Origin: a bacterium
GTDB taxonomy: Bacteria > CAIJMQ01 > JAADFP01
NCBI GenBank assembly: GCA_027021085.1
Contig: JALUVB010000022.1
Span: 1-14,524 of the forward strand
DNA: 14,524 bases
Direction of reading: 5' to 3'
Shown here: in pieces, positions 4,226-11,665 of the stretch
Position numbering within the stretch: the first letter of the stretch is position 1
Layout: each line of letters opens with the position of its first letter
Position numbers and translations under genes: made by a program
The notes under the pieces: model-generated
Told to the model about the DNA's origin: nothing
The model's input: only the letters and a program-made list of their open reading frames with translations
Database searches by the model: none

Positions 4226-4244
4226 GCAGTGAACAGTAGGGTTC

Positions 4245-4258
4245 CCTGCCCGCTTCCC
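4245..4258 (-). repeat. 14-nt intergenic repeat copy
   Basis: Read on the minus strand this is GGGAAGCGGGCAGG, identical to 2451-2464 on the plus strand. Both copies are intergenic. A shorter related word, GCGGGCAGGC, occurs at 402-411 in the hairpin loop and arm at the end of miaB. This may be a trace of a small dispersed repeat. Confidence 0.35.
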
Positions 4259-4296
4259 GGAAGAGATTTTAAGTTTGTGATTTTGGCTTTAAAAAG

Positions 4297-4305
4297 TGGG
4301 ATAAT
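4297..4305 (+). promoter_or_regulatory. Possible promoter of the hydrogenase operon
   Basis: TGGGATAAT (4297-4305) is a TGn-extended -10-like element in the 148-nt gap before the small-subunit gene. A weak -35 candidate is TTGTGA (4275-4280), with 19-bp spacing. Transcription near 4312 would give a leader of about 60 nt ending in the AAGGAGG SD. I see no distinct operator or FNR/NtrC-type box. Confidence 0.35.
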
Positions 4306-4373
4306 GGGTGGTAAGTTTCCATTTCCAATTCAGTGTTTATGGTGCAGGAGGAAATTAACAGAAGGAGGTGCTG

Positions 4374-5222
4374 ATGAGCGAGGAGTACCCGGTAGTATGG
4401 TTTCAGGGGGCAGGCTGTACAGGCTGTTCTGTCTCTCTCCTGAACAGTGCGAGTCTTAAGTTTAAGGATATTCTGCTGGATGAAATAGTGCCCGGGAAAA
4501 AACTTAACCTGAGATTTCATCCTACGGTAATGGCAGGCCAGGGAGAGATGATAATTAATGTTCTGCGGGACACCGAGAAAGAAAAAAAGGGAGAGTATAT
4601 TCTCATTGTAGAGGGAGCTGTCCCCACATTAAATAACGGAATCTTTGGCGCGGTGGGAGAAAAAACCATCCTGGAAAGAGTCCTGGAACTGGGGAAAAAT
4701 GCTCTTCTTACTGTGGCAGTGGGAAATTGTGCAGCTTATGGTGGCATACCCGCAGCAAAGCCGAATCCTACTGGATGTAAAAGTGTGAAGAGGGTTTTTG
4801 CGGAGAACGGAGTTGATACTTTAACCGTCAACCTTCCCGGTTGCCCCCCCCATCCGGATTGGATGGTGGGTACATTATCCGTAGCACTGCGGGGCTTACC
4901 GTTAGACCTGGATGAAATAGGCAGGCCCAGGCTTTTCTACGGGAAAACCATCCACGAAAATTGTGAGAGAAGGGCTTACTTTGATAAGGGTAAATTTGCC
5001 CAGAAATTCGGCGAAGAAGGCTGCCTTTACGAACTGGGTTGTAAAGGCCCCTACACATCCGCGGACTGTCCGCTGCGAGAATGGAACAACGGGGTTAACT
5101 GGGTCATAGGGGCCGGCTCTCCCTGCCTGGGATGCGTGGAGCCGGAGTTCCCCGACAGCACCTCGCCGTTTTATCGGAAGCTTTCTTGGGAGGAAATGAA
5201 AAATGAAAAAAATTGTGATTGA
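4374..5222 (+). CDS. [NiFe]-hydrogenase small (electron-transfer) subunit, cytoplasmic type
   Basis: This 282-residue subunit carries three iron-sulfur clusters that pass electrons between the Ni-Fe site and an acceptor. Proximal cluster ligands are Cys15, Cys18 (GAGCTGCSVSLLN), Cys119 (GNCAAYGG) and Cys157 (PGCPPHPDW). Distal ligands are His194, Cys197, Cys217 and Cys223 (HENCERR, then GCLYELGCKGP). Medial ligands are Cys232, Cys251 and Cys254. Val244 stands where a fourth Cys (or the usual Pro) would be, which fits a [3Fe-4S] medial cluster. The pattern is that of group 1/2 uptake enzymes. An in-frame stop at 4356-4358 rules out a hidden Tat signal, and there is no C-terminal membrane anchor, so a cytoplasmic location is predicted. 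The ATG at 4374 is preferred over the GTG at 4368 because AAGGAGG ends at 4368. Its end overlaps the large-subunit gene by 20 nt. Confidence 0.94.
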   Translation: MSEEYPVVWFQGAGCTGCSVSLLNSASLKFKDILLDEIVPGKKLNLRFHPTVMAGQGEMIINVLRDTEKEKKGEYILIVEGAVPTLNNGIFGAVGEKTILERVLELGKNALLTVAVGNCAAYGGIPAAKPNPTGCKSVKRVFAENGVDTLTVNLPGCPPHPDWMVGTLSVALRGLPLDLDEIGRPRLFYGKTIHENCERRAYFDKGKFAQKFGEEGCLYELGCKGPYTSADCPLREWNNGVNWVIGAGSPCLGCVEPEFPDSTSPFYRKLSWEEMKNEKNCD

Positions 5223-6684
5223 TCCTATTACCCGGATAGAAGGGCATATGGCGGTGGAGACTCTTCTGGAGGGAGGGAAAGTGAGAGAGGCGAAGAGCTC
5301 GGGCACGCTTTTCCGCGGCTTTGAAATTATACTAAAAAACAGGGACCCCCGCGATGCTGCCCGCATAACCCAGAGAATATGCGGGGTTTGTCCTGCTATA
5401 CACGCATACACTTCGGCTCTTTGCCTGGATGATGCCTTTTCTATAAAAGATAAGATTCCCCACAATGGGCGTACAATAAGGAATCTTATACTCGGCTCTA
5501 ATTTTCTGCAGTCCCACATCCTCCATTTCTACCACCTGGCTATTCCCGATTATGTAGACCTGGGGAAAGTAGTGGGAAAGGTATCCCCTTTCATCCCTGC
5601 TTATGAGGGAGACTTTCGCCTCTCGGAGGAGGCAAATGCTAATCTTGCCACTCATTATCTGCAGGCTCTGGATATACGGCGTATATGCCAGGAGATGCTG
5701 GCAGTTTTTGGCGGTAAGATGCCCCACAATGTAGGTATTATAGCGGGTGGAGCAACACTTACGCCCGATATAGATAGAATCAACCATTTCAAGGGAAAAC
5801 TAAAGGAGATACAGGCTTTTGTGGAGAATGCAGTGCTGCCCGATGTATTAACCCTTGCCAGGGCTTACCGGGATTACTTTGAAGTAGGCAGGGGATGCGG
5901 AAGTTTTCTCTCCTACGGAGGGTTTGTCCTAGAGGAAGGCAGGTTCTTGCAAGCCGGGATAGTGAATAGTGACATGCAATTTGAAGAGCTTGACCCAGAG
6001 AATATTGCAGAGCAGGTCAAGCACTCCTGGTATGCTGACTCTGAATCAGGGAAAAATCCTTCCCGGGAGGAAACAATTCCCGCCCCGGAAAAAGAAGGCA
6101 GTTACTCGTTTATAAAATCTCCTCGTTACAAAGGGAAGGTCTATGAAGTAGGGCCTTTAGCCAGGCTCATGGTAAACTACTTCACTAAACAGGAAGAGAT
6201 TAACCGGGTGGCAGAGCCTCTTCTCAAAGAACTCTCCCTGCAAATAGAGGATGTCCCTTCTGTCATGGGACGACACCTGGCACGCGCGATAGAATGTAAG
6301 GTACTGGTAGAGGCAATGAGTGACTGGGTAGAGGAATTGATACCCGGCGAGGCTGTATATACAGAGGCTGAGATACCCGAGGAGGGAGAAGGTTATGGCC
6401 TGGCAGAAGCTCCCCGCGGTTCCTGCGGGCACTGGATAAAAATTTCTGACCGGAAAATTGCCCGCTATCAGGTAATCACTCCCACGGCCTGGAATGCTTC
6501 TCCTAAAGATGACCGGGGGATACCGGGGCCAATAGAGCAGGCACTTATAGGGACAGAGATAAAAGATGAGGAAAATCCCTTCGAGGTGGTGCGTATTGTG
6601 CGTGCCTTTGATCCCTGTCTTGCCTGTGCCGTACATTTAGTGGATATGCGGGGAAAAGACCTGGGGAAATACAGAATTGCGTAA
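5203..6684 (+). CDS. [NiFe]-hydrogenase large (catalytic) subunit
   Basis: This 493-residue subunit binds the Ni-Fe(CN)2CO centre that splits or forms H2. The N-terminal signature DPITRIEGH (7-15) is present. The L1 motif RICGVCPAIH provides Cys60 and Cys63, and the L2 motif DPCLACAVH provides Cys472 and Cys475. The last 15 residues (479-493, LVDMRGKDLGKYRIA) form a removable extension cleaved after His478, matching the protease gene that follows. The GTLFRGFEIILKNRDPRDA segment resembles group 1 respiratory uptake enzymes, although its partner lacks the Tat signal usual there. GGAGG at about 5189-5193 supports the ATG at 5203, inside the small-subunit gene, and suggests coupled translation. 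Confidence 0.95.
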   Translation: MKKIVIDPITRIEGHMAVETLLEGGKVREAKSSGTLFRGFEIILKNRDPRDAARITQRICGVCPAIHAYTSALCLDDAFSIKDKIPHNGRTIRNLILGSNFLQSHILHFYHLAIPDYVDLGKVVGKVSPFIPAYEGDFRLSEEANANLATHYLQALDIRRICQEMLAVFGGKMPHNVGIIAGGATLTPDIDRINHFKGKLKEIQAFVENAVLPDVLTLARAYRDYFEVGRGCGSFLSYGGFVLEEGRFLQAGIVNSDMQFEELDPENIAEQVKHSWYADSESGKNPSREETIPAPEKEGSYSFIKSPRYKGKVYEVGPLARLMVNYFTKQEEINRVAEPLLKELSLQIEDVPSVMGRHLARAIECKVLVEAMSDWVEELIPGEAVYTEAEIPEEGEGYGLAEAPRGSCGHWIKISDRKIARYQVITPTAWNASPKDDRGIPGPIEQALIGTEIKDEENPFEVVRIVRAFDPCLACAVHLVDMRGKDLGKYRIA

Positions 6685-7132
6685 GACAGTTATTATTGGG
6701 CTGGGCAACATTTTGTTGAGAGACGAGGGGGTTGGCTCCTGGATAGCGCAGGAATTGCAGAAGAGGAGGCTCCCATCCCAGGTAGAAGTTATTGATGCAG
6801 GCACCACCAGCCCCGATGCTTTGCTGGCGGAGGGTAATATCAAAAAAGTGGTGATTGTTGATGCATTGAAAGGGAACGGAGAACCCGGGGCGCTTTACAG
6901 GATACCCTTTAACCAGTTGTTATCCAGTCAGGACTTTCCCCTTTCTCTGCACCAGTTTGGGCTTCTCCACTCTCTCTGGTTTACTCCTGGTTGTGAAGAA
7001 ATTGTAGTAATGGGTGTGGAGCCGGAGGAAATAAGCTGGGGCTGGGGATTGAGCGAGAATATTAAGAAAAAACTTCCCGAGATTACAGACCTCATTTTAA
7101 AGGAGGTAAATTATGCTGGTAACGGAATCTAA
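6677..7132 (+). CDS. Hydrogenase maturation protease (HycI/HybD/HyaD family)
   Basis: This 151-residue endopeptidase removes the C-terminal extension of the large subunit once nickel is inserted. Family signatures are VIIGLGNILLRDEGVG (5-20, containing the Asp/Glu-Gly metal-binding motif), VVIVDALKG (about 58-66) and SLHQFGLLHSL (about 92-102, the nickel-sensing His), in the expected order. The start is TTG at 6677, overlapping the last codons of the large-subunit gene. No later ATG or GTG would keep the first beta strand, so the TTG start and translational coupling are likely. It also overlaps the next gene by 20 nt. Confidence 0.9.
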   Translation: MRKTVIIGLGNILLRDEGVGSWIAQELQKRRLPSQVEVIDAGTTSPDALLAEGNIKKVVIVDALKGNGEPGALYRIPFNQLLSSQDFPLSLHQFGLLHSLWFTPGCEEIVVMGVEPEEISWGWGLSENIKKKLPEITDLILKEVNYAGNGI

Positions 7133-7793
7133 ACCTATAGAGGAAATACTGGGTTTTCTGGAGGGCAGGGAAAAAGTGTTTCTGGCTGTTTGCAGCGGCT
7201 GCCCGGAAGCATGTAAAACAGGGGGAAAAGAGGGGATGGACATAATGCAGGAGAACCTGGAAAAGCAGGGTAAAAGCGTGGTGGGAACAACCGTGATAGA
7301 TATGATGTGCAATAAAGCACTGGATTGGATAAAGATTTCCCGCTCCATGCACCAGGTGGAGGAAGCTGATGCCATCTTAGTCCTCTCCTGTGGCGTGGGA
7401 GTGCAGGCAATAGGCAAGGTAGTGGATAAACCGGTGCATCCTGCTTTGAACACCATTTCCGTGGGTGGTCTGCCCGGCCTCTGGCCCTCGGAAGAAAGGT
7501 GTGCAGCCTGTGGAGAATGTGTGCTCTCCCACACGGGAGGCATATGCCCGATAACCAATTGTGCCAAGTCTCTGTTGAACGGACCCTGTGGAGGCACTAC
7601 TATGCAGGGCAAATGCGAAATAGATGCCGAAAAAGATTGCGGTTGGTATCTTATTTATGAAAGGCTGAAAAAAACTGGCAACCTGGAAAACCTGAAGAAA
7701 ATCGTGAGAACCAGGGACTTCAGCAAGATTATACCCTCTGCGGAACTGCGTAATACCGTTTTTTACAATGTAGAACAGAAGGTTAATTCTTAG
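7113..7793 (+). CDS. MetV-like protein (methylene-tetrahydrofolate reductase C-terminal-like iron-sulfur domain)
   Basis: This 226-residue Cys-rich protein resembles MetV, the partner of MetF in acetogenic methylene-tetrahydrofolate reductases (family MTHFR_C). Cys27, Cys30 and Cys34 lie in VCSGCPEAC. Cys66 and Cys93 (VLSCGVGVQ) follow. A C-terminal cluster region runs RCAACGEC (129-136), GGICPITNCAKSLLNGPCGG (143-161), then Cys168 and Cys176. In MetV the C-terminal half binds iron-sulfur clusters and docks on MetF. No metF lies in the window. AAAGGAGG and an ATG inside the protease gene tie it to the hydrogenase operon. It is probably an electron-transfer or docking partner of the hydrogenase, or links it to a MetF encoded elsewhere. 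That role is inference, but family membership is well supported. Confidence 0.83.
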   Translation: MLVTESKPIEEILGFLEGREKVFLAVCSGCPEACKTGGKEGMDIMQENLEKQGKSVVGTTVIDMMCNKALDWIKISRSMHQVEEADAILVLSCGVGVQAIGKVVDKPVHPALNTISVGGLPGLWPSEERCAACGECVLSHTGGICPITNCAKSLLNGPCGGTTMQGKCEIDAEKDCGWYLIYERLKKTGNLENLKKIVRTRDFSKIIPSAELRNTVFYNVEQKVNS

Positions 7794-7837
7794 TTTTCAA
7801 CTGAGAGTGGCTAATTTAGGGGCAAGACAGTTTATTC

Positions 7838-10180
7838 GTGGAAACTGAGCGACTCCAGATAAAAATCAAAGGCAAGGTGCAGGGAGTGGGCTTTCGCCCC
7901 ACTGTCTTCCGGTATGCTACAGAAAGAAATCTTTCCGGGTGGGTTACCAATACCTCCTGCGGTGTGCTTATAGAGGCAGAGGGAAACAGGGATAATCTGG
8001 AGGATTTTATCCTTGCCCTGGAAAAATCCCCCCCTCCCCGGGCAGAAATAACCAATATACTTACTAAGAAGATTCCGCCCAGGGGAGAGTGCATATTCCG
8101 GGTGCTCCCCAGTATAGCCGGGGACGAGGTAAAAACGCGCATCTCGCCTGAGATTGCCACCTGCCCGGATTGCTTAGAGGAACTTTTTGACCCCCAAAAC
8201 CGGCGCTATCTCTACCCTTTTATAAATTGCACCAATTGTGGCCCGCGTTTTACCCTCATAGAAAACATTCCTTATGACAGAAAAAATACCACCATGAAAA
8301 AATTTACCATGTGCTCACTCTGCCAGGAAGAGTATGAGAATCCTCGCAACAGGAGATTTCATGCTCAACCCAATGCCTGCCCTGTATGCGGGCCAGAGGT
8401 TACGTTGATGGAAGCTTCAGTAGCCAGAAGGGAGAAACTGGCTAAGGGAAACGAAGCAGTAGAAAAGACCGTACGATTACTGCAGGAAGGGAAAATAGTG
8501 GCAATAAAAGGCCTGGGCGGCTTTCACCTGGCCTGCGATGCCACAAATGATGCGGCAGTAAGAAGATTAAGGAAAAGAAAGTATCGGGAGGATAAGCCGT
8601 TTGCCCTGATGGCAGACAGCCTGGCCATTATCATGAGATACTGCGAAGTTTCTCCGGAAGAGATAGAACTGCTCACTTCTTTCCGGACTCCCATTGTTCT
8701 CCTGCGCAGGCGGAAAAGTTCTTCCTCGCCTCTTTCAGAAAATATTGCTCCCGGTAACCAGTATCTGGGGTTTATGCTTCCCTATACTCCGCTGCACCAT
8801 CTTTTGTTTTATAACAGTCCGCTTAAAATCCTGGTGATGACTTCGGGAAATATTTCCGATGAGCCCATTGCCTATGAGAATGAGGAAGCAGTAGAAAGGC
8901 TCTGCAATATTGCAGATTATTTCCTCCTGCATAACCGGGACATACACATTCGCCTGGACGATTCTGTGAGCAGGATTCTTCCTTTTACAGGAGAAGAGTA
9001 TATCATCCGGCGTTCCAGGGGATACGTCCCTGAGCCTGTAAAGATTGAAGGCTTGAGGGTTTCTGTGCCTATTCTGGCCTGCGGCGGGCATACAAAGAAT
9101 ACCTTTGCCATAGCTTCAGAAGATGAAATTATCCTGAGCCACCATATAGGGGATATGGAAAATATGGAAACATATATCTCTTTTACCCGGGGTATTGAGC
9201 ACTTCAAAAAGCTCTTAAAATGTGAACCAGGGGTTATTGCCCATGATTTGCACCCTGAGTATCTTTCCACTAAATATGCCCGGGAGCTTATTGCTTCTGA
9301 CCCGCAGCTTATTCCTGTGCCCATACAGCATCACCATGCTCATATAGCTTCAGTTATGGTGGAAAATGGATTGGGAAACGAGAAGATTATCGGAGTAGCA
9401 TTCGATGGGACAGGGTTTGGTTCCGAGGGAAATCTCTGGGGAGGAGAGTTCCTGGTTGCTGATTACTGTGGGTTTGAACGTGTGGCACACCTTGAGTATA
9501 TTCCGCTCCCGGGAGGGGAAGGAGCAATAAAGGAACCCTGGCGAGTGGGTGCCGCCTTGCTTCATGCTGCTTTTGGCGACAGTTTTCTGGATTTGGAGAT
9601 TGAATTTGTGAGAGGGTTAAACAGGAAGACCTGGAATATACTGGAGAAGATGATGGATAGAGGAATTAACACCCCCTTAAGTTCAAGCATGGGACGATTC
9701 TTTGACGGAGTCTCTTCCCTGCTCTGTATCAGGGAGCGGGTAAACTACGAGGGACAGGCAGCCATTGAGCTGGAGACGGCTTTGAGTAAGGGGAAGAGCA
9801 GGAAAAACCAGGCATATAAATACAGGATAGAAAAGAGGGAAAAGGCATATGTTATTGCTACAGAGGAGATTGTAAAGGGCATAGTGGAAGATTTGAAAAA
9901 GGCTTTACCGGTGGGGGATATTGCGCTGAAATTCCACTGCACAGTCACAGCACTGGTTGTGGATACGGTAAAAAGGATAAGAGAGGATACTGGCCTGGAA
10001 ACAGTAGCTTTGAGCGGAGGGGTATTCCAGAACATGTTTCTCCTCAGAGAGATTTATGGAAAACTCCGGGAAGAAGGCTTTAGTGTGCTTCTGCATAAAA
10101 ATATCCCTGCTAATGATGGGGGGATTTCTGCCGGGCAGGCGATCATCGCGGCCTATAAAACCGAAAAATATAAGTTGTAA
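7838..10180 (+). CDS. hypF: Carbamoyltransferase HypF, [NiFe]-hydrogenase cyanide-ligand synthesis
   Basis: This 780-residue enzyme uses carbamoyl phosphate and ATP to carbamoylate the C-terminal Cys of HypE, the source of the CN ligands. Domains in order: acylphosphatase (1-92, with GKVQGVGFRPTVFR), a zinc-finger pair with Cys109/112, 131/134, 159/162 and 181/184, a YrdC-like domain (about 200-390, with AIKGLGGFHLACDA) and a Kae1-like carbamoyltransferase domain (about 410-780, with HHHAHIASV near 497, FDGTGFG and LSGGVFQN near 724). All motifs are intact and the length is slightly above average. The GTG at 7838 is the only plausible start, because an in-frame TAG lies at 7817 and the acylphosphatase strand starts at once. 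It has no proper SD, unlike its neighbours, so coupling or weak initiation may limit it. Confidence 0.95.
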   Translation: METERLQIKIKGKVQGVGFRPTVFRYATERNLSGWVTNTSCGVLIEAEGNRDNLEDFILALEKSPPPRAEITNILTKKIPPRGECIFRVLPSIAGDEVKTRISPEIATCPDCLEELFDPQNRRYLYPFINCTNCGPRFTLIENIPYDRKNTTMKKFTMCSLCQEEYENPRNRRFHAQPNACPVCGPEVTLMEASVARREKLAKGNEAVEKTVRLLQEGKIVAIKGLGGFHLACDATNDAAVRRLRKRKYREDKPFALMADSLAIIMRYCEVSPEEIELLTSFRTPIVLLRRRKSSSSPLSENIAPGNQYLGFMLPYTPLHHLLFYNSPLKILVMTSGNISDEPIAYENEEAVERLCNIADYFLLHNRDIHIRLDDSVSRILPFTGEEYIIRRSRGYVPEPVKIEGLRVSVPILACGGHTKNTFAIASEDEIILSHHIGDMENMETYISFTRGIEHFKKLLKCEPGVIAHDLHPEYLSTKYARELIASDPQLIPVPIQHHHAHIASVMVENGLGNEKIIGVAFDGTGFGSEGNLWGGEFLVADYCGFERVAHLEYIPLPGGEGAIKEPWRVGAALLHAAFGDSFLDLEIEFVRGLNRKTWNILEKMMDRGINTPLSSSMGRFFDGVSSLLCIRERVNYEGQAAIELETALSKGKSRKNQAYKYRIEKREKAYVIATEEIVKGIVEDLKKALPVGDIALKFHCTVTALVVDTVKRIREDTGLETVALSGGVFQNMFLLREIYGKLREEGFSVLLHKNIPANDGGISAGQAIIAAYKTEKYKL

Positions 10181-10204
10181 TTGTTTACTGTTTTATGGTA
10201 TATA
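10175..10204 (+). promoter_or_regulatory. Possible internal promoter for hypC-hypD
   Basis: TTGTAA (10175-10180, overlapping the hypF stop) and TATATA (10199-10204) with an extended TGG (10196-10198) are spaced by 18 bp. They lie just before a 90-nt gap that is unusually long for this operon. This could allow hypCD expression apart from the structural genes. Confidence 0.4.
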
Positions 10205-10235
10205 GTTCCCGTAAAACAATTTTTGCATTTTAAAT

Positions 10236-10256
10236 CCTCCGGGAGTAATCCGGAGG
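10236..10256 (+). repeat. 7-bp stem hairpin just upstream of hypC
   Basis: CCTCCGG (10236-10242) pairs exactly with CCGGAGG (10250-10256) around a 7-nt loop, immediately before the purine-rich SD (GGGGGAG, about 10259-10265) of hypC. There is no T-run, so it is not an intrinsic terminator. The right arm lies 15-20 nt from the start codon, so it could protect or process the mRNA, or tune hypC translation. Confidence 0.45.
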
Positions 10257-10270
10257 CAGGGGGAGAGAAA

Positions 10271-10483
10271 ATGTGTCTGGCTGTTCCGATGAAAGTTATA
10301 AGGGTTGAGAAAGATGAAGGCCTGGTGGAACTGGGCGGGGTAAGAAGAAAAGTAAACATGGGCCTTTTAGATGATATAAAAGTGGGAGAATATGTAATAG
10401 TGCATGCAGGTTTCGCCATACAAAAAATGGAGGAAAAAGAGGCAGAAGAGACACTCTCCATATTCAGGGAAATGGAGGCATAG
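10271..10483 (+). CDS. hypC: Hydrogenase assembly chaperone HypC/HybG family
   Basis: This 70-residue chaperone carries the Fe(CN)2CO unit with HypD and delivers it to the large subunit. The hallmark N-terminus MCLAVPMKV is present. Cys2, exposed after Met removal, is the essential ligand. ELGGVRRKVNMGLLDDIKVGEYVIVHAGFAI follows the family pattern in residues 22-53 or so. The ATG at 10271 is chosen over any upstream start because Met-Cys must be at the extreme N-terminus, and GGGGGAG supports it. It sits between hypF and hypD, as in many hyp operons. Confidence 0.95.
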   Translation: MCLAVPMKVIRVEKDEGLVELGGVRRKVNMGLLDDIKVGEYVIVHAGFAIQKMEEKEAEETLSIFREMEA

Positions 10484-10573: not shown

Positions 10574-11665
10574 TTGAAGTATATTGAAGAATTCAGGAAT
10601 CCGGTTCTCATTAAAAAAATCATCAAAAAGACGAATAAAATGCTGGAGGATTACGGGAAGCCCATACAGCTTATGGAAGTCTGCGGAACTCACACCGTAG
10701 CCATTTCCCGCTCGGGCTTGAGGAAACTGTTTCATCCCCTGAAACTCTTATCCGGTCCCGGCTGTCCGGTTTGTGTAACTCCCAACCACTATATGGATAA
10801 AGCCATTGCCTATTCCCGCCGGAAAGAGGTAATAATAACCACGTTCGGAGACATGATGAGGGTGCCTGGCTCCACCTCTTCCCTGGAAAGGGAGAGAGCG
10901 GAAGGTAGAGATGTGCGGGTGGTTTACTCTGCCTTAGATGCGTTACAGGTGGCAAGAGATAACCCGGGGAAAAAGGTTATATTTCTGGGAGTGGGATTTG
11001 AGACTACCACACCTACTGTTGCTTTAACCATTAAGATAGCTAAAAGGGAGAACTTAAAAAATTTCTTCGTATATTCAGGCCATAAGCTTATTCCGCCGGC
11101 CATGGAGGCGCTTCTGGAAGACAGCGAAGTTTCCATTGACGGGTTTATCTGCCCCGGGCACGTAAGCACAATAATCGGCTCTCTTCCCTACGAATTCATC
11201 CCGCATAGATATAATATACCCTGCGTTATAACCGGCTTCGAGCCCCTGGACGTAGCAGAGGGCATTGCCATGCTGGTAGAGCAGATTGTAAATGGCAAGA
11301 AGCCGGCGGTGCAGATTCAATATGCCCGTTCTGTAAAAAGAGAAGGCAATAAAAAAGCAGTCTCAATCATGCAAGAAGTATTCAGCGTGGAGCAGTCCAA
11401 CTGGAGAGGGGTGGGAACTATTCCCCTCAGTGGTTTAAAAATAGGGGAAGAGTACAGCCGGTTTGATAGTGAGAGAAATATTCAGGTTGAGGTGGAGCCT
11501 ACTAAAGAGAACCAAGCCTGTATCTGCGGAGATATCCTGAGGGGGGTGAAGAGCCCCCCGGACTGTAAGCTGTTCAGGCGGGGATGTACCCCTGAACAGC
11601 CTGTGGGGGCTTGCATGGTCTCCTCAGAGGGCACATGTGCCGCGTATTTTAAGTACGAAGGGTAG
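10574..11665 (+). CDS. hypD: Hydrogenase maturation protein HypD
   Basis: This 363-residue [4Fe-4S] protein is the scaffold on which the Fe(CN)2CO group is built with HypC and HypE. The conserved motifs are [16 protein letters not shown] with Cys37 and [10 protein letters not shown] with Cys64 and Cys67. GVGFETTTP and PAMEALLE follow, and a C-terminal Cys set (CICGDILRG, then [26 protein letters not shown]) carries the cluster. Length is normal. The start is TTG at 10574, giving [10 protein letters not shown] as in relatives, with GAGGG a few bases upstream. The 90-nt gap after hypC holds no gene that I can see. The stop codon lies inside the 3' end of the convergent decarboxylase gene (17-nt overlap), and no hypE follows. 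Confidence 0.95.

Follow-up and report, generated by a model that had tools for sequence, protein, structure and literature searches.

We found that a bacterium assigned to the Caldisericota, and several unrelated ones, keep a [NiFe]-hydrogenase in one operon with MetV, the electron-input subunit of methylene-THF reductase, which suggests a previously undescribed direct route from H2 to the methyl branch of carbon fixation. The stretch of DNA analysed (hereafter the window) spans 14,524 nucleotides, positions 1 to 14,524 of contig JALUVB010000022.1 in assembly GCA_027021085.1, and encodes on its plus strand a hydrogenase small subunit (4374-5222), large subunit (5203-6684), maturation protease (6677-7132) and full-length MetV (7113-7793), followed by hypF (7838-10180), hypC (10271-10483) and hypD (10574-11665). 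This gene order agrees with a first-pass annotation made from the sequence alone, which had described the fourth gene as MetV-like and the genes up to it as overlapping by 20 nt; the overlaps are in fact 20, 8 and 20 nt, such that this description holds for two of the three, and a 44-nt gap precedes hypF.

To establish the identity of each gene product, we searched the translated open reading frames against protein family profiles. The small subunit matches PF01058 (Oxidored_q6) and PF14720 (NiFe_hyd_SSU_C), and although its listed open reading frame begins at a GTG at 4368, the ATG at 4374 is preceded by a ribosome-binding site (AGAAGGAGG). Its best relatives among solved structures are the [NiFeSe] hydrogenase small subunits 1cc1 and 4kl8 (E about 1e-84), and it keeps the cluster ligands C17, C20, C121, C159 / H196, C199, C219, C225 / C234, C253, C256, with V246 at the position of the fourth medial Cys. 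The large subunit, which is likewise closest to [NiFeSe] hydrogenases among solved structures, matches PF00374 with 484 bits and NF033181 above its cut-off, and it possesses both CxxC motifs (RICGVC and DPCLAC) with all four Cys, an ordinary Cys codon instead of Sec at the active site, and a C-terminal tail after the His for protease cleavage. The protease is of the HycI/HyaD type (PF01750, TIGR00072), and the maturation genes were recognized by TIGR00143 with 802 bits (hypF, a carbamoyltransferase), PF01455 matched from residue 31 of the open reading frame at 10181-10483 (hypC, a chaperone) and PF01924 and TIGR00075 (hypD). Together with the hyp genes, these features identify a catalytic [NiFe] hydrogenase. 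Scans for promoters and terminators gave no more sites than shuffled sequences.

The designation of the fourth gene as MetV can be made without qualification. The protein matches PF12225 (DUF5981) with 112 bits against a cut-off of 23, aligns over its whole length with MetV from standard MetVF operons, and retains Cys 27, 30, 93, 130, 133, 136, 145, 150, 159, 168 and 176. The 11 Cys that are invariant among the first five aligned MetVs are invariant or at least 98% conserved in 48 other MetVs. An AlphaFold model of the monomer is confident (pLDDT 90), but PDB searches with MetV alone and with a 51-row profile found no relative, and a Foldseek search with the model gave only weak matches to the alpha/beta N-terminal part (TM about 0.3) that were not informative.

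We next asked if the linkage between hydrogenase and MetV is conserved. A search for the large subunit over 386 sampled genomes gave eight genomes in six genera at E below 1e-188, and five of these six genera carry the linkage. The order is small-large-protease-MetV in the window genome (G000) and in its nearest relative, a genome of the same genus (G001, deposited as Caldisericota bacterium isolate M_MaxBin.041) whose locus, on a contig of 17618 bases that corresponds to JAADFP010000159.1, has the same order throughout. Outside this genus, sampled genomes G073, G191 and G316 encode small-large-protease-MetV-MetF and G180 encodes small-large-MetV-MetF, whereas G204 alone has a Tat-type hydrogenase without MetV. 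G386, from the genus of G073, also has the cassette, and in G323, from the genus of G191, it is split over two contig ends. A Chloroflexota contig (L033) carries a rearranged form in the order HdrA/MvhD-MetV-small-large-kinase-MetF-regulators-MetV-MetF-Hdr. Spacing in these cassettes runs from a 20-nt overlap to a 21-nt gap. The phyla of G073 and G191, for which only 6 and 3 genomes were searched, contain neither G180 nor G316, and with Caldisericota and Chloroflexota this makes at least four phyla. Weaker homologs (loci L126-L140 apart from L131, and L153) are not MetV-linked. This conservation argues against MetV being a chance neighbor.

The linked hydrogenases share traits that set them apart. 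All eight MetV-linked small subunits with a readable N-terminus lack a Tat signal, the window protein having only 3 codons upstream of the aligned start, while all 14 readable relatives without MetV have one, with a TRREF/SRREF-type motif (Fisher p 3e-6, although only one change on the tree underlies this association). In a concatenated small and large subunit tree, the nine linked hydrogenases form one clade in the best tree (support 79/89) within a 10-row group supported at 99/98, the tenth member being a Tat-type enzyme (from G200), and a single change explains the linkage. In the MetV tree, the eight cassette MetVs group together (87/66) within a group at 98/91 that also holds the second MetV of L033 and the MetVs of RnfC-fusion operons. 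Twelve positions distinguish the linked MetVs, among them W124 (9/9 against 0/48 other MetVs) and K68 (9/9 against 2%). Clade supports are moderate, however, and shared descent alone could give this pattern, so it is not proof of an interface. A distance-matrix test of co-divergence appeared strong (r 0.92) but rests on same-genus pairs; without them r is -0.06, meaning that hydrogenase and MetV distances do not correlate among deep lineages, and we do not use this test as evidence.

The genomic background is compatible with a folate C1 pathway. The window genome (94% complete) has one MetV, one MetF on another contig, an FTHFS fragment at a contig end, and a CODH/ACS cluster comprising CooC-like, AcsD, an Fe-S protein, a flavoprotein, the CODH catalytic subunit, ACS alpha/beta and gamma. 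The tetranucleotide signature of these contigs matches the window, with a correlation of 0.96 for the CODH/ACS contig, which led us to reject the possibility that this contig is contamination. No FlpD/MvhD family protein (PF02662) was found in G000, G001, G073, G386 or G316, which argues against an HdrABC-MvhD relay there. In line with the first-pass annotation, which had described the hydrogenase as lacking its own membrane or diaphorase subunit, the window operon encodes no Tat signal, no C-terminal anchor and no further subunit. A second [NiFe]-type large subunit, encoded on another contig with Mrp-type membrane subunits, is a group-4-like candidate for ferredoxin/H2 conversion, identified only by family match and the CxxC motifs read from its sequence. 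Of note, no CODH/ACS beta subunit was found in G001, G191 or G316 (86-93% complete), although G323, of the same genus as G191, has it, so the module may serve methionine or other C1 needs there.

Based on these data, we favor, with moderate confidence, the hypothesis that the operon encodes a soluble, cytoplasmic H2:methylene-THF oxidoreductase, a fifth subunit layout of the MetVF reductase beside published types I-IV. The first-pass annotation, which had proposed that the complex may feed H2 electrons towards methylene-THF or another acceptor through the MetV clusters, is supported, although the physical complex, the electron route and its direction are inferred from gene content and conservation and not from an interface prediction or biochemistry. 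In this reading, the [NiFe] heterodimer oxidizes H2 and electrons pass along the Fe-S chain of the small subunit to its distal cluster and directly into the clusters of MetV, then to the flavin of MetF, which reduces methylene-THF to methyl-THF for CODH/ACS and perhaps for methionine, with no NAD(P)H, ferredoxin, quinone or bifurcating HdrA/MvhD module in between. With H2 at -414 mV and methylene-THF/methyl-THF at -200 mV, the step is exergonic by about 41 kJ/mol under standard conditions (PMC9430772) and would commit H2 electrons practically irreversibly to the methyl branch, though a non-bifurcating reaction wastes energy in an energy-limited organism. That MetV already serves as input adaptor for RnfC2 and HdrCBA-MvhD (PMC8760232, PMC9430772), and that MetV-RnfC fusions occur in the MetV group next to this one, are consistent with such a role. 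The weakest step concerns the window genus itself, in which MetF is unlinked and belongs to the clade that elsewhere goes with HdrA-MvhD-MetVF and not with the cassette MetFs, such that its pairing with this MetV is uncertain. It is about as likely as not that these genes represent a widespread, dedicated H2-dependent methylene-THF reductase in little-studied anaerobic phyla, having evolved once when a periplasmic-type hydrogenase without its export signal was joined to MetV.

Alternative explanations appear less likely. It is possible, though doubtful, that the hydrogenase works with a soluble carrier such as ferredoxin or an NfnAB-type flavoenzyme while MetV works with MetF elsewhere, the two sharing an operon because both belong to H2-dependent growth. 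Metal-enzyme genes are often co-transcribed, MetF is unlinked in the window genus, an NfnAB-type enzyme lies in the G073 operon and an NfnA homolog on the metF contig, and type II MetVF are reported to accept ferredoxin electrons in vitro (PMC8760232). Nonetheless, MetV immediately follows the protease or large subunit in every cassette except L033, where it directly precedes the small subunit, the linked MetVs have their own signature residues, and no Tat-type relative is linked to MetV.

We consider it unlikely that the same complex runs in reverse, oxidizing methyl-THF with proton reduction to H2 in syntrophic acetate or methyl-group oxidation or as a redox valve. Methyl-THF oxidation by a MetVF with artificial acceptors is documented (PMC6895022), the group-4-like membrane hydrogenase cluster could handle H2 and ferredoxin, and some lineages use the pathway in reverse, but this direction is uphill by about 41 kJ/mol and the cassette contains no energy-coupling subunit. 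Also improbable, in our view, is that MetV in this genome connects the hydrogenase to a different, unknown acceptor while MetF is paired with something else. Such a role could be suggested by a same-family genome in which MetV occurs without MetF among Mrp/NBP35-type ATPase genes, and by the differing clade of the window genome's MetF. However, the window MetV is the only one in its genome, the MetF is of the MetV-dependent kind, as its clade mates sit next to MetV, and in all other cassette genera MetF is present near the hydrogenase.

The physiological electron donor of MetVF-type methylene-THF reductases is an open question, treated as a hypothesis in PMC8760232, and here genomes of several phyla point to a definite donor in the form of an adjacent hydrogenase, which would also be a compact biocatalyst for H2-driven C1 reduction. 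Among the open-licence papers we were able to search, none describes a hydrogenase heterodimer contiguous with MetVF; a study of deep-sea Chloroflexi (PMC5736913) describes hdrABC-mvhD-metVF with two metVF sets and regulators, much like L033, but reports no supporting evidence for H2 as donor. In MetVF reductases of types II-IV, as in the cassettes, MetV is the Fe-S/zinc subunit beside MetF and the point at which the electron-donor module differs between types, the known modules being ferredoxin (II), RnfC2/NADH (III) and HdrCBA-MvhD (IV) (PMC8760232). The arrangement does not fit type II, since hydrogenase genes are contiguous with metV in all carriers; nor type III, since no RnfC-like gene lies in the window operon, although one is present in relatives of the same class; nor type IV, since MvhD is absent from five of eight carriers searched and HdrA/MvhD lies beside the hydrogenase only on L033. 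In Sporomusa ovata, the same overall reaction of H2 and methylene-THF to methyl-THF proceeds through a periplasmic, Tat-exported, cytochrome-b-linked hydrogenase, the membrane and HdrCBA-MvhD (PMC9430772), whereas here the hydrogenase is predicted to be cytoplasmic and sits in the MetV operon with no membrane part. Periplasmic [NiFe]/[NiFeSe] hydrogenases (e.g. 1cc1, 4kl8) share the large and small subunits, maturation protease and Ni and Fe-S ligands, but the enzyme described here differs in having no Tat signal, Cys instead of Sec at the active site, a Val at the position of the fourth medial-cluster Cys in the window genus, and a MetV partner. Finally, MvhAG-MvhD-HdrABC of methanogens and Mvh-like systems also use a cytoplasmic [NiFe] hydrogenase to deliver electrons to an Fe-S partner without a diaphorase, but in the window the large subunit is of the [NiFeSe]-like family and not MvhA, and the partner is MetV without MvhD/HdrA.

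In the genome under study, we found a group-4-like hydrogenase/complex-I-type large subunit that possesses both CxxC motifs, together with Mrp antiporter-like membrane subunits, on contig C128 (locus L088, 1-10389). On contig C99 of the same genome, an NfnA-like gene, ExbB/ExbD-like genes and an NfnB-like fragment lie a few kb from the only metF (locus L047, 9579-11779). In genome G316, the first proximal-cluster Cys of the hydrogenase small subunit is Asp (DxxC; locus L125, 509-1348), and the same change is seen in the Tat-type L126.

In G002, a genome of the same family as the genome under study, MetV stands without MetF among Mrp/NBP35-type ATPase genes and a small gene that looks NifX/dinitrogenase-cofactor-like (locus L073, 7312-8043). 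At three further loci (L081, 6157-8193; L070, 3017-5035; L049, 6297-8303), MetV is fused to an RnfC-like protein (DUF5981 + RnfC_N + Complex1_51K + 4Fe-4S) and is followed by MetV and MetF, an arrangement that represents a fused version of the NADH-type (III) reductase, and one of its carriers, G004, is of the same class as the genome under study. Lastly, in the Hdr-MetV-hydrogenase region of the Chloroflexota contig L033, a cNMP-binding histidine kinase and two response regulators are interspersed with metF (4232-7921), like the two-component genes reported around metF in PMC5736913.
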